64,000 nucleotides of DNA from SAR202 cluster bacterium bin87. GTDB taxonomy: Bacteria > Chloroflexota > Dehalococcoidia > Lucifugimonadales > UBA3495. The stretch lies in NCBI GenBank assembly GCA_002238825.1, contig MPNC01000003.1, positions 248,001-312,000 of the forward strand, read 5' to 3'. The translations under genes and the position numbers were made by a program. Positions within the stretch are counted from its first letter, which is position 1. Each line of letters begins with the position of its first letter. The notes below the pieces were generated by a model, which did no database searches, was not told where the DNA came from, and saw nothing but the letters and a program-made list of their open reading frames with translations. This document shows positions 2,690 to 53,714 of the stretch, in pieces.

Positions 2690-2910
2690 TGAAACGCTCC
2701 TTATCCGTTGTTAATTGGCATCATGGCCAATGTCGCGAATGTCTTGATACGGATTCTGGGTATCTTTCTCAATCGACTGTCGGCCTATGTTCCCGTGATT
2801 TTGAGTTGAGTCAAATTACCATACGCTGCATACTGCTGCAACTAGAAAGGGTGGTCGGGGTCGTCCCGCGCCTACTCAATCTTGCGGCGCCCACACTCCG
2901 ATTTGGCGGG

Positions 2911-4194
2911 TCAGTACACCACCTGCTGAGCGATCAGGTCGTCGATCCGGGACCCGTCAATGCCCAGCAATTGCCGCAGGACATACTCGTTGTGTTGACC
3001 CAGCAGGGGCGCCGGCGTGCGGACCGCTCCCGGTGTCCCGCTGAACCTCCAGGGCACGCCGTACACCATCTCTGCGCCGGCGTGCGGATGATCGATTTCC
3101 ACGTAGGTCTCCCGGGCGTTCAGATGCGGGTCCGCGAACTGATCGGCGATGTTCATCACCGGCATGGCCGCCACTCCCGCTGCCTGCAGCCTTTCGGTGA
3201 CCTGCTGAGGGCTGAGCTCAATGGTCCACTCCGCGATGACTTCATCCAGTGCTCGCCGGTTGGCCCATCTGGATGATTGGTCGGCGAAACGTGCATCCGT
3301 GGCGAGACGGACGCGATCGGTCCGGTCGCTATCTATGGTTCCGGCCAATGCCTGCCATTCCTGATCCGTGCTCACGCCGATGGCGATCCAGGTGTCATCT
3401 CCGGCGCAGGGATAGTTGTTGTGCGGCGCGAAGTCGGGGTCGTCGTTGCCGGGCGGAACCGGGATCGTGCCGGTCATCTGGTAGTCGAGCATGGGCACGC
3501 CCAACAAGGCGGCTGTCCCTTCCAGGTGGGCGGCTTCCACATATTGCCCTTGTCCCGTGCGGTTGCGGCGCCGCAGGGCCGCCACCACGCCCAGCGCGGC
3601 GCACAGGGCCGCCACCGTGTCGCTCCACGCCGCTTGCAACTCACCGACCAGGGGCTCGCCTTCATCCGGAGCGTAGCCCACCAAGCTCATCATGCCCGAC
3701 ATGGCCTGGATGATGGGAGCGTATGCCACCATGTCCCGCAGCGGCCCACTGTCGCCGAACGCCGGCATGGATGCCACGATGATGTCCCGTTTGACCACCC
3801 GCAGGCTGGCATAATCCATGCCGAGCCTTTCCAGCACGCCGGGCGAGAAATTCGCCAGCACCACGTCACTGACCGAGGCCAGTTGTTGCAGTAATCCGCG
3901 CCCGGCCTCGGTGCGGAGATTCAAGGTGACGCTGAGCTTGTTCCGGTTGAGACCGTGAAACACCGGCTGCAATTCGGGCCAAAGGCCACGGTCTCCCCCG
4001 GCCAGGTCTTCGCCGACCATGGGTCGGCCCAGCCGCATACCGTCCATGCGCGCCCGGCTCTCCACCTTGATCACCTCGGCGCCCATGTCCGCCAGCAGAT
4101 GCCCGGCCATGGGCCCGGCCCAGGCGGAGCCCAGGTCCACGACGCGCACGTTACGCAGAGGAGGTAGAGGCATCGGGCTACCGGCGACCGTCAT
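2911..4194 (-). CDS. CaiB/BaiF family CoA-transferase
   Basis: This is a class III CoA-transferase-fold protein of 427 residues. Family hallmarks are the N-terminal RVVDLGSAWAGPMAGHLLADMGAEVIKVE block, a NRNKLSVTLNL segment and the C-terminal APLLGQHN box. Members move CoA between acyl chains, or racemise 2-methylacyl-CoA. Near the active site the sequence is GQYVEAAHLEGTA; this aligns best with the alpha-methylacyl-CoA racemase-like branch, but with Glu where that branch has Asp, so the reaction is uncertain. Its ATG overlaps the stop of the upstream CaiB gene by 4 bp (ATGA), so the two are translationally coupled and may form a heteromer. An internal Met at residue 8 is a less likely start. 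Confidence 0.88.
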   Translation of the reverse strand: MTVAGSPMPLPPLRNVRVVDLGSAWAGPMAGHLLADMGAEVIKVESRARMDGMRLGRPMVGEDLAGGDRGLWPELQPVFHGLNRNKLSVTLNLRTEAGRGLLQQLASVSDVVLANFSPGVLERLGMDYASLRVVKRDIIVASMPAFGDSGPLRDMVAYAPIIQAMSGMMSLVGYAPDEGEPLVGELQAAWSDTVAALCAALGVVAALRRRNRTGQGQYVEAAHLEGTAALLGVPMLDYQMTGTIPVPPGNDDPDFAPHNNYPCAGDDTWIAIGVSTDQEWQALAGTIDSDRTDRVRLATDARFADQSSRWANRRALDEVIAEWTIELSPQQVTERLQAAGVAAMPVMNIADQFADPHLNARETYVEIDHPHAGAEMVYGVPWRFSGTPGAVRTPAPLLGQHNEYVLRQLLGIDGSRIDDLIAQQVVY

Positions 4195-48891: not shown

Positions 48892-49022
48892 CAGGGCCTG
48901 TGCAAAGTCCGTCCTCCCGCTCATGGTGAGCTTGTCGAACCACGCTCCGGCAACGGCAGCATCCTTCGACAGGCTCAGGATGAGCGGAAACCAAAGAAGC
49001 CCATTACTTTGCACAGGCCCTG
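48892..49022. mobile_element. MITE family A, copy 1
   Basis: A 131-bp element with perfect 17-bp terminal inverted repeats (CAGGGCCTGTGCAAAGT at 48892-48908, complement at 49006-49022), flanked on both sides by the direct repeat GCCGGACGG (48883-48891, 49023-49031), a target duplication. Inside is a second, imperfect ~23-bp inverted repeat (CCGCTCATGGTGAGC.../...GCTCAGGATGAGCGG). It has no open frame for a transposase. It differs from copy 2 (51940) at three bases and one indel. It sits between tyrA and the MFS gene. Confidence 0.88.
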
Positions 49023-49112
49023 GCCGGACGGGAGAAACCCGAGTACAAACCGGTCGCCCGTGCGATTGGGAAGCGCGAATGAACGGGTGTATCATTCGGG
49101 GCCTGTGAAAGC

Positions 49113-51282: not shown

Positions 51283-51380
51283 TGGCGGTTGGGGATTGAC
51301 AGCGTGTTTATTGGCGATTATGATAACGACAATTCCGGTTTGCAATGTGAAGGCGACACCGATCGAGGAGGCTAGGAGCG

Positions 51381-51602
51381 ATGGTTACTCTCAACGAACG
51401 TCTAGTCACCGTGGATGAAGAACAACCTGCTGGGCTATTGACCGAGAAAGTGGAAAAGGATTTGGCTGAAGCGCTGACCGAGTTTGGGGCCCACAAGGAA
51501 GAAGTCGCGCCGGAACGCGCCTGTCGCATCTCCCCGCCCACCCTGCAGTACGGCATTCCGATGGCCGGAGTGCGGTACTACAGCTTCGTGCCGGAGACGT
51601 AA
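51381..51602 (+). CDS. Small protein with C-terminal YGIPMAGVRYYSF motif (paralogue 1)
   Basis: A 73-residue protein with no known family. The N-terminal half is an acidic amphipathic helix (NERLVTVDEEQPAGLLTEKV, then EKDLAEALTEFG), and the end is YGIPMAGVRYYSF-V-PET. A GAGGAGG site lies nine bases before the ATG. Its partner at 52172 shares the start pattern NERL, GLL.E.VE.D.AE.L.EFG and the whole C-terminal motif; the four codon differences within that motif are silent, which points to selection for the protein. The layout (variable helical leader, fixed short tail) resembles a secreted or modified peptide precursor, but no maturation gene is adjacent. Confidence 0.75.
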   Translation: MVTLNERLVTVDEEQPAGLLTEKVEKDLAEALTEFGAHKEEVAPERACRISPPTLQYGIPMAGVRYYSFVPET

Positions 51603-51634
51603 CACAGCAGGCGACAGGACGCGACGATGCGCTC

Positions 51635-51669
51635 TGGGGCGGCCATCAAGGTCGCCCCAATTATTTTGC
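51635..51669 (+). terminator. Terminator after small protein 1
   Basis: A 10-bp stem TGGGGCGGCC/GGTCGCCCCA (one G-T pair) with loop ATCAA, followed by ATTATTTTG. It lies 33 bp past the stop and supports a real, separately transcribed gene. Confidence 0.75.
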
Positions 51670-51680
51670 CCGCCGCGCAG

Positions 51681-52094
51681 CTCACGCGTACCCAGTTGGT
51701 CATCGCGATGAGCGCGGCGACTTGGCGATGCTGTTGCTGGAAGAGACTCCGGCTGCCATCACGAGATTGCCACGCTTCGCTCGCAATGACATAGGACTTA
51801 CGCCGTTGGGCAGCATAGCAGCCGTCACTCCCGCTTTCGCGGGAATCCAGTGGCCGAAATCGTCAACGGTGTTCCAGTTTCGTTCCCTGGAAAGACTATG
51901 GATTCCTGCGAAAGCAGGAATGACGGGTGAAGTGCAACTCAGGGCCGGTGCAAAGTCCGTCCTCCCGCTCCTGGTGATCTTGTCGAACCACGACTCCGGC
52001 AACGGCAGCATCCTTCGACAGGCTCAGGATGAGCGGAAACCAAAGAAGCCCATTACTTTGCACAGGCCCTGGAGTGCAACTGGGCACGCGTTGA
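51681..52094. repeat. Composite family B element with nested insertion
   Basis: Ends CTCACGCGTACCCAGTT (51681-51697) and its near-complement AACTGGGCACGCGTTGA (52078-52094, two mismatches). Inside are an ATTGC unit (51763-51790), two ATTCCC hairpin units (51826-51852, 51902-51921) and MITE family A copy 2 (51940-52072), which inserted next to the right end and duplicated AGTGCAACT. The order of insertions can be read: B first, A later. Confidence 0.65.
51940..52072. mobile_element. MITE family A, copy 2
   Basis: About 132 bp, ~97% identical to the copy at 48892. Ends CAGGGCCGGTGCAAAGT (one change from copy 1) and the exact complement ACTTTGCACAGGCCCTG (52055-52071). It is flanked by AGTGCAACT at 51931-51939 and 52073-52081, a 9-bp target duplication different from that of copy 1, which shows independent insertion. 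Confidence 0.88.
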
Positions 52095-52171
52095 CAAAGT
52101 GACTATAAGCAGGTATGATACGAACCATATCAAGTGATTGGAATCATAATGGCGTAAGGAGGAACACGACG

Positions 52172-52381
52172 ATGGTTGCTGCCAACGAACGTCTGATTGC
52201 AGAAGAGGCCAACCGCCAGCGCGGGTTGCTGCGCGAGCAGGTGGAACAGGACATGGCCGAGGTGCTCGACGAGTTCGGCTCCGCGGCTCCTGCGGAAAAG
52301 CGCGAGGCCCGGGTCTACAGTTTCGGTTACGGGATCCCCATGGCCGGCGTGCGGTACTACAGCTTCTCGCCGGAGAAATAA
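52172..52381 (+). CDS. Small protein with C-terminal YGIPMAGVRYYSF motif (paralogue 2)
   Basis: A 69-residue paralogue of the gene at 51381. It has AAGGAGG eight bases before the ATG. The helix NERLIAEEANRQRGLLREQV leads to EQDMAEVLDEFG, a variable Ala/Glu segment, then YSFGYGIPMAGVRYYSFSPEK. YSF occurs twice (49-51 and 63-65). No signal peptide or membrane helix is present. The nearest downstream gene is the Grx-TrxR fusion on the other strand. Function is unknown. Confidence 0.78.
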   Translation: MVAANERLIAEEANRQRGLLREQVEQDMAEVLDEFGSAAPAEKREARVYSFGYGIPMAGVRYYSFSPEK

Positions 52382-52403: not shown

Positions 52404-52432
52404 GCGGGGGGCGACCGACCGTCGCCCCCCGC
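52404..52432 (+). terminator. Hairpin after small protein 2
   Basis: A perfect 12-bp stem GCGGGGGGCGAC/GTCGCCCCCCGC with loop CGACC, 22 bp past the stop. It lacks a T-run but is similarly placed to the terminator after paralogue 1. Confidence 0.6.
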
Positions 52433-52448: not shown

Positions 52449-52473
52449 GGCCGGGAGTACGCTCCCGGCCTTT
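52449..52473. terminator. Bidirectional terminator between convergent genes
   Basis: Stem GGCCGGGAG/CTCCCGGCC with loop TACG, followed by TTTCAGTT on the plus strand. It lies against the stop of the minus-strand Grx-TrxR gene and closes the plus-strand small gene. Confidence 0.55.
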
Positions 52474-53714
52474 CAGTTGTCTCCCCGGTACCCCCGGTTG
52501 CGGATTTCTTCCTCCATGTGGGCCCGGATGCCGATGAGGGCTGCGGCTCCTTCTCCCACCGCCGTGGCAACCTGCTTGGTGCTGCCGGCCCGGGCATCGC
52601 CGGCGGCAAAGACGCCGTGACGATCGGTCTCCATTGATGAGGAGCGCGGGCTTCCTCCCGTAACGATGAAGCCTCGCTGGTCCAACTCAACCATGTCCGA
52701 GAGGAAGCCGGTGTTGGGGTCGAGGCCGATGAAGACGAACACTCCGGCGGGATGCAGTTCTTCCTGATCACCGGTCACCAGGTCCTCAACGAGTACGGAG
52801 GCCAGTCGCCCGTCGCCGCGAAACTCGCGCACGGTGGTGTTCAGGCGGAGGTCCATCTTCGGGTGGGCGGCTGCCTTGTCCTGCAGCACCTGGCTGGCGC
52901 GCAGGCGGTCGCCCCTTTCCAGGACGGTGACGCGGGAGGCGAACCGGGTGAGAAACAGGCCCTCCTCGACCCCGCTGTTGCCACCGCCCACGACCAGCGT
53001 TTCCAGGTCGCGATAGAACGGGCCGTCGCAGGTGGCGCAGAAGTGGACGCCGGCCCCGATGAAGTCGTCCTCGCCGGGCACGTCGAGGCGGCGATATCGG
53101 GTTCCCGGGGTCAGCAGCAGGGCGGGAGCGCGGTACTCCTGGCCGGATTGGGTGGTGACGGTGCGGACGCCGCCGGTTTCCGGTCCGGGGTCCACCGACG
53201 CCACGGTTTGCGCGACGAGGATCTCGACTCCGAACCGCTCGGCCTGCTCACGCATACGGTCGGCCAGGTCTGCGCCGGAGACGCCGTCGGCGAACCCGGG
53301 ATAGTTGTCGATGCGCTCCGTGGAGCCGGCCTGGCCGCCGATGCCGCCCCGCTCGATGATCAGCGTCTCCATGCCCTCACGGGCGGCGTAGATGGCGGCG
53401 GTCAGGCCGGCCGGCCCGCCACCGACGATGATCAGGTCGTAGTGGGAACGGCTGGCCTGCGGATTGATGCCGAGACGCGCGGCCAGCTCGGCGTTGGACG
53501 GCTCCGCCATGATGGGCCCGCCGTCATCGAACACGATGGTGGGGATGATCTGCCGGCCATCGTTCAGTTGGCGAACGGTCTCCTGGGCCTCGGGTTCCTG
53601 TTCTATGTCCACCCAGCTATAGGGTATGCGGTGTTCGGCCAGGAACTGCTTGGAACGGCGGCAGTCGGGGCACCACAGGGCGCCGTAGACGGTCATGCGT
53701 GGGGATTGCGTCAT
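52473..53714 (-). CDS. Glutaredoxin-thioredoxin reductase fusion
   Basis: A 413-residue flavoprotein with an N-terminal glutaredoxin-like domain (1-82, redox motif CPDC at 15-18) joined to a complete low-molecular-weight thioredoxin reductase. FAD motif GGGPAG (98-103), GGQAG, redox pair CATC (226-229), NADPH motif GGGNSGVEE and C-terminal GVFAAGDARAGSTKQVATAVGEGA are all visible. The Grx part could pass electrons directly from the reductase to thiol targets, in place of separate thioredoxin. It is a single-gene minus-strand unit. Confidence 0.93.
   Translation of the reverse strand: MTQSPRMTVYGALWCPDCRRSKQFLAEHRIPYSWVDIEQEPEAQETVRQLNDGRQIIPTIVFDDGGPIMAEPSNAELAARLGINPQASRSHYDLIIVGGGPAGLTAAIYAAREGMETLIIERGGIGGQAGSTERIDNYPGFADGVSGADLADRMREQAERFGVEILVAQTVASVDPGPETGGVRTVTTQSGQEYRAPALLLTPGTRYRRLDVPGEDDFIGAGVHFCATCDGPFYRDLETLVVGGGNSGVEEGLFLTRFASRVTVLERGDRLRASQVLQDKAAAHPKMDLRLNTTVREFRGDGRLASVLVEDLVTGDQEELHPAGVFVFIGLDPNTGFLSDMVELDQRGFIVTGGSPRSSSMETDRHGVFAAGDARAGSTKQVATAVGEGAAALIGIRAHMEEEIRNRGYRGDN

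Follow-up and report, generated by a model that had tools for sequence, protein, structure and literature searches.

Within the 64,000-nucleotide window analyzed here, taken from contig MPNC01000003.1 of SAR202 cluster bacterium bin87 (positions 248,001 to 312,000), two small plus-strand genes, gene 1 (51381–51602) and gene 2 (52172–52381), encode proteins of 73 and 69 residues that end in the same conserved motif and are referred to below as tail proteins. Sequence comparisons indicate that they belong to a real, previously unnamed family of ~60–85 residues that is restricted to one order of uncultured Chloroflexota. By virtue of a shared promoter site, the inclusion of gene 2 in the same regulatory set as the dnaK operon is well supported. 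We propose, with a probability of about one half, that the pair represents an order-restricted family of stress proteins, in which gene 1 (paralogue P1) would be constitutive, gene 2 (paralogue P2) would be released from HspR repression together with DnaK, and a C-terminal β-hairpin would dock on the chaperone system.

The regulatory link was found in the promoter of gene 2. Here, an inverted repeat of the form TGATA-N7-TATCAAG (TGATA-CGAACCA-TATCAAG; 52116–52134, plus strand) overlaps the −10 element of a near-consensus sigma-70-type promoter (TTGACA-17-TATGAT; 52091–52119, plus strand), and this site is the sole match to TGAYA-N7-TATCAAG in the 4.96-Mb source genome, which is assembled in 67 contigs. 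Upstream alignments of many HspR- or Hsp20-linked members of the family showed a TTGAYA-N7-TATCAA repeat over the −35 element, and TTGACAC-N5-GTGTCAA is present at the hspR-grpE-dnaK operon of the source genome (L177) and of its relatives. The spacing of the tail-gene and dnaK repeats equals that of the HAIR element, CTTGAGT-N7-ACTCAAG (PMC6102357). We infer that HspR would bind the repeat.

The pattern TTGAYAY-N5-RTRTCAA, with at most one mismatch and within 130 nucleotides upstream of the gene, was found at 20 of 63 tail genes, compared to 6 of 450 control open reading frames (ORFs) and none of 1260 shuffled regions (Fisher P = 4e-15, although related rows are not independent). All six positive control ORFs share their intergenic region with a tail gene. 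Seven genomes (G010, G012, G022, G025, G028, G117 and G119) contain exactly two sites genome-wide, one at the hspR-grpE-dnaK promoter and one at the tail gene, and three others (G000, G035 and G038) have one additional site; across ten genomes in three families there are two to three sites each, always including these two. P2 is missing from G006 and G002, and in these two genomes the site is present at dnaK but absent at the tail gene. A third operator-like site in the source genome falls within a transposon region of the IstB type and is probably a chance match.

Gene 1 has a strong, near-consensus promoter of the same type (TTGACA-17-TATGAT; 51296–51324, plus strand), which is kept in all 14 orthologues with a TTGAC[AG] hexamer, a 17-nucleotide spacing and a −10 element of the TATGAT/TACGAT type, but the HAIR-geometry repeat that gene 2 has in common with dnaK/hspR is absent. 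A scan of the region found 3 promoter-like sites, compared to a mean of 0.3 in shuffled sequences. The promoters of both genes, the HAIR-like operator of gene 2 and the broad distribution of the family had all escaped the earlier note made from the sequence alone. Since the P1 promoter lacks the site and the P2 promoter has it, a constitutive and an HspR-type copy appear to coexist in the focal genome.

A small zinc-ribbon-like ORF of ~60–90 residues (CPxCxGDL...CLQCG; near 2758–3433) was also observed next to the hspR-grpE-dnaK operon, or divergent from it, in six loci (L216, L218, L219, L220, L223 and L224). Because it lies near the dnaK-operon operator, it may be a further small protein under HspR control.

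An earlier note, made from the sequence of the window alone, had described the two genes at these coordinates, each with its own strong ribosome-binding site, and both are now seen to be conserved protein-coding genes. The ribosome-binding sites, read from the sequence, are GAGGAGG for gene 1 (51365–51371, plus strand) and AAGGAGG for gene 2 (52156–52162, plus strand). Each gene is followed by a hairpin, as the note had said: a terminator-like one detected by the scan downstream of gene 1 (51635–51659, plus strand), and a GC-rich 10-bp one without a T-run downstream of gene 2 (52406–52430, plus strand), which can be read from the sequence and is absent from the scan list. The note's view of a similar helical first half and a shared tail also holds, since P1 and P2 have the N-terminal ERL/helix region and the tail in common. 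In the phylogenetic tree, P1 and P2 form two groups separated by a single split with 95/89 support, which indicates that their separation predates the radiation of the genus.

The tail (codons 51549–51587 in gene 1 and 52328–52366 in gene 2, plus strand; YGIPMAGVRYYSF in both) has the consensus [WFLM]-x-[YF]-x-[IVM]-P-x-[AP]-G-V-[RK]-Y-Y-[ST]-[FY] among 63 aligned members, in which the G and V are found in all 63, the R and the P in 58 each, and the first and second Y in 60 and 61, respectively. It is preceded by a short helix with the pattern L...V..(E/D)(V/L)..(I/V)L.E and a variable linker, and followed by 0–41 variable residues. Within the 13 tail codons, the two genes differ at exactly the four silent positions that had been counted previously, with no nonsynonymous difference. 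Pooled over the genus, the ratio of nonsynonymous to synonymous substitution rates (dN/dS) was 0.31 for P1 and 0.37 for P2 over the whole gene, and 0.06 and 0.07, respectively, for the tail. These ratios bear out the selection on the protein that had been suspected, and argue that the tail is under strong purifying selection.

AlphaFold2 models calculated with family alignments placed a helix at residues 20–36 in P2 and 20–42 in P1, and a C-terminal β-hairpin at residues 49–54/62–67 in P2 and 54–61/64–70 in P1. The predicted local distance difference test (pLDDT) score was ~80–92 for most of the length of the hairpin block, and the remainder of the models had low confidence. The conserved tail is therefore predicted to be a β-hairpin.

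Each of the other 13 genomes in the genus contains relatives of the tail proteins. With a nine-sequence profile, 36 of the 50 genomes in the GTDB family were positive, including 16 of the 18 of good quality. With a 24-sequence profile, 54 of the 250 genomes in the order were positive, and 37 of these belong to the same GTDB family; the cases outside it are scattered, and the weakest are borderline. The relatives that carry names are Dehalococcoidia/Chloroflexi metagenome-assembled genomes. A phylum-wide sample of 400 genomes gave no convincing match beyond the source genome; the single borderline one (G539, E = 0.003) lies within a 371-residue frame and is probably due to chance. No relatives were found in the plasmids, phages and viral contigs searched, and within the source genome the tail pattern is confined to genes 1 and 2. 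The earlier note had not recognized the family, and sequence searches of Pfam, NCBIfam, PHROGs and the PDB likewise gave nothing significant. A match to CydDC (8ips, E = 0.0027) was a sum of weak, unrelated segments and was judged to be chance. A literature search with the tail motif string returned no related publication. The alignment A5, in which some rows were adjusted by hand (start residues altered, undetermined residues dropped, and one frameshifted member joined), served only as a search profile and was not an input to the structure predictions. In one assembly (L105, G027:C167, near 1807–2316), the tail gene is split over two frames, with the helix in one and the tail in the other, reflecting either a pseudogene or a frameshift introduced by sequencing.

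In the focal genus, the gene pair is syntenic and, in most loci, convergent with a glutaredoxin-thioredoxin reductase fusion (52473–53714, minus strand, in the window). Beyond the genus, the surroundings differ, yet remain largely stress-related. Among 124 neighboring proteins there were seven each of Hsp20 and MerR/HspR, five each of α/β hydrolases and universal stress proteins, and three each of CopA-type ATPases, DnaJ and Ni-SOD. Several divergent members of the family lie beside Hsp20 or are transcribed divergently from an HspR gene, and in seven loci (L084, L087, L088, L080, L137, L138 and L139) the latter encodes a distinct HspR paralogue. This paralogue differs from the HspR proteins encoded in the dnaK operon and beside dnaJ/clpB, and has its own conserved C-terminal peptide, GWFKVNPGEA[VL]EFDS in several members. 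In five other loci (L081, L082, L091, L043 and L141), the tail genes are located near a GAF-domain histidine kinase and a response regulator, in an arrangement that recalls the DosRS-type dormancy regulons; the L081 neighborhood additionally has a universal stress protein. No maturase, other peptide-maturation enzyme or dedicated exporter recurred in ~50 loci among the 25 most frequent of 104 neighbor families.

The spacer between genes 1 and 2 (51660–52090, no strand assigned) has a different history from the genes themselves. These ~430 nucleotides are composed of dispersed repeats, to which the genome has another 45 partial matches elsewhere, in agreement with the earlier description of a pair set among mobile repeats. 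However, the pair is spaced much closer in a relative (G010) than in the focal genome, so the repeats are best regarded as incidental, lineage-specific insertions outside the family. Both reading frames lie outside the repeats, and homologues with the conserved tail exist, which argues against the chance frames in a repeated element that had been considered at the outset. A perfect 79-nucleotide repeat pair occurs within the window at 48945–49023 and 51994–52072.

According to the model that we favor, the tail proteins are small and probably cytoplasmic; the N-terminus is variable, and a short helix, acidic and amphipathic, is joined by a disordered linker to an autonomous C-terminal β-hairpin, of which the [AP]-G-V-R-Y-Y core is almost invariant. 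Gene 1 is probably constitutive, and gene 2 would be repressed by HspR via a HAIR-variant operator over the −10 element. When unfolded protein titrates DnaK, gene 2 would be turned on together with hspR-grpE-dnaK. The hairpin would dock on a conserved member of the chaperone network, either DnaK or its partners, or Hsp20, and the helix and linker would handle or deliver clients, making the protein a stress-induced adaptor or co-chaperone. The docking partner most likely belongs to the DnaK/Hsp20 system, because the strict regulon consists of the dnaK operon and the tail gene. Likewise, since one of the two genes has the control site of the DnaK operon, the family probably aids in the handling of damaged proteins. 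This biochemical role, including the adaptor activity, is inferred. Several observations weigh against such a model. Co-regulation with DnaK is no proof of contact, and the neighborhoods of the tail genes vary. Several branches of the family, those near the α/β hydrolase and acyl-CoA ligase as well as gene 1 itself, are without the operator, and HspR control is therefore not universal. The operator test was not fully blind, because the site was first spotted at the tail genes and dnaK was tested afterwards. Finally, the whole-protein models are weak (predicted template modeling score of 0.25–0.27), and the register of the hairpin is not the same in the two AlphaFold2 runs.

The restriction of the strict regulon to the dnaK operon and the tail gene would also be expected if the protein were a feedback modulator of the HspR–DnaK switch rather than a client helper, with its exposed aromatic and arginine residues forming a high-affinity ligand of DnaK or HspR that sets the off-time of HspR. 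The divergence of some members from a dedicated HspR paralogue is consistent with this possibility, and we count in its favor that mycobacterial DnaK acts as the co-repressor of HspR and binds to its C-terminus (PMC10415612). However, members without an HspR site also adjoin genes for Usp (universal stress protein), CopA and Ni-SOD, and gene 1 is without HspR control. Moreover, the peptides bound by DnaK are extended, unlike the hairpin predicted for the tail, and we consider a feedback role to be rather unlikely. The diversity of the stress neighbors, which include Usp with a two-component system, CopA, Ni-SOD and glutaredoxin-thioredoxin reductase, would fit a general stress-linked protein whose hairpin binds a target other than a chaperone, for example the ribosome, RNA polymerase or a protease component, and which is under HspR control for no other reason than that heat is among its inducers. 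Against such a protein, the strictest regulatory tie is to the dnaK operon alone, and we also assign it a low probability.

The earlier note had compared the proteins to a peptide precursor or a docking peptide. Docking is close to the model favored here, but a precursor is not supported, because no maturase recurs among the most frequent neighbor families of ~50 loci, the tail forms a predicted hairpin of 15 residues followed by 0–41 variable ones, and the neighbors and the operator point to stress. A leader-like helix and a short, strongly conserved tail are indeed what would be expected of a ribosomally synthesized and post-translationally modified peptide (RiPP)-like precursor with the tail as its core, and one member matches TIGR04351 (TOMM) very weakly (E = 0.076). 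At 12.6 bits, well under the curated cutoff of 65, this match was judged to be chance. With a leader that is more variable than the core, often 15–41 extra residues after the tail, no dedicated exporter that recurs among these families and a predominance of stress neighbors, a RiPP-like product is very unlikely. A conserved C-terminal motif of ~15 residues behind a variable N-terminus might also stall the ribosome and thereby control an adjacent gene, as in a regulatory nascent chain, and the tail gene does precede Hsp20 in L080, L087 and L088. The GVR core of the tail presumably bears a loose resemblance to the GIR of the SecM arrest sequence, which we take as a lead only. However, the tail gene follows Hsp20 in L078, L090 and L093, so that its position relative to Hsp20 (upstream, downstream or apart) is not constant, and each of the genes in the focal genus is set apart, with either a terminator or a convergent neighbor. 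An arrest peptide is thus highly improbable.

With these results, an anonymous short ORF of an uncultured Chloroflexota lineage becomes a putative heat-shock component that can be put to the test. The tail constitutes a new and compact protein motif, and the variant HspR operator offers a means of reading the regulon of this order. More tentatively, and at less than even odds, the proteins may constitute an order-specific class of DnaK-system cofactor, a ~70-residue helix plus β-hairpin that is the sole partner of hspR-grpE-dnaK in a minimal HspR regulon and is unrelated to the known co-chaperones. If the hairpin is indeed a ligand of the DnaK system, it would represent a new kind of co-chaperone and provide a handle on the tuning of DnaK in these bacteria.

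Pup is an acidic protein of ~65–70 residues with a helix and a functional C-terminus. The tail proteins are of similar size, acidic, and likewise combine a helix with a C-terminal motif, but the motif is different, and a Pup-type C-terminal GG-E/Q was not found in the 63 aligned members. Hsp20 (PF00011) is similarly stress-linked and adjoins the tail genes in several loci; its α-crystallin domain had no Pfam match in the tail proteins. Ruc (Rv0991c) is a small chaperone that is disordered in part and occurs together with proteostasis genes (PMC7448276). The tail proteins resemble it in being small, largely disordered and encoded near such genes, a likeness in mode of action only, but differ in having a conserved, predicted C-terminal hairpin and no cysteine motif, with no Cys4 motif of the Ruc zinc-binding type in the aligned members. 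The closest parallel in regulation is the HspR/HAIR regulon of Streptomyces, Mycobacterium and Helicobacter, in which a divided inverted repeat, with matching CTTGA...TCAAG half-sites and equal spacing, is likewise located at hspR-grpE-dnaK. The core is TTGACAC-N5-GTGTCAA here, in contrast to CTTGAGT-N7-ACTCAAG there, and, judged by this operator pattern, the HspR regulon of these bacteria would comprise the dnaK operon and the tail gene.
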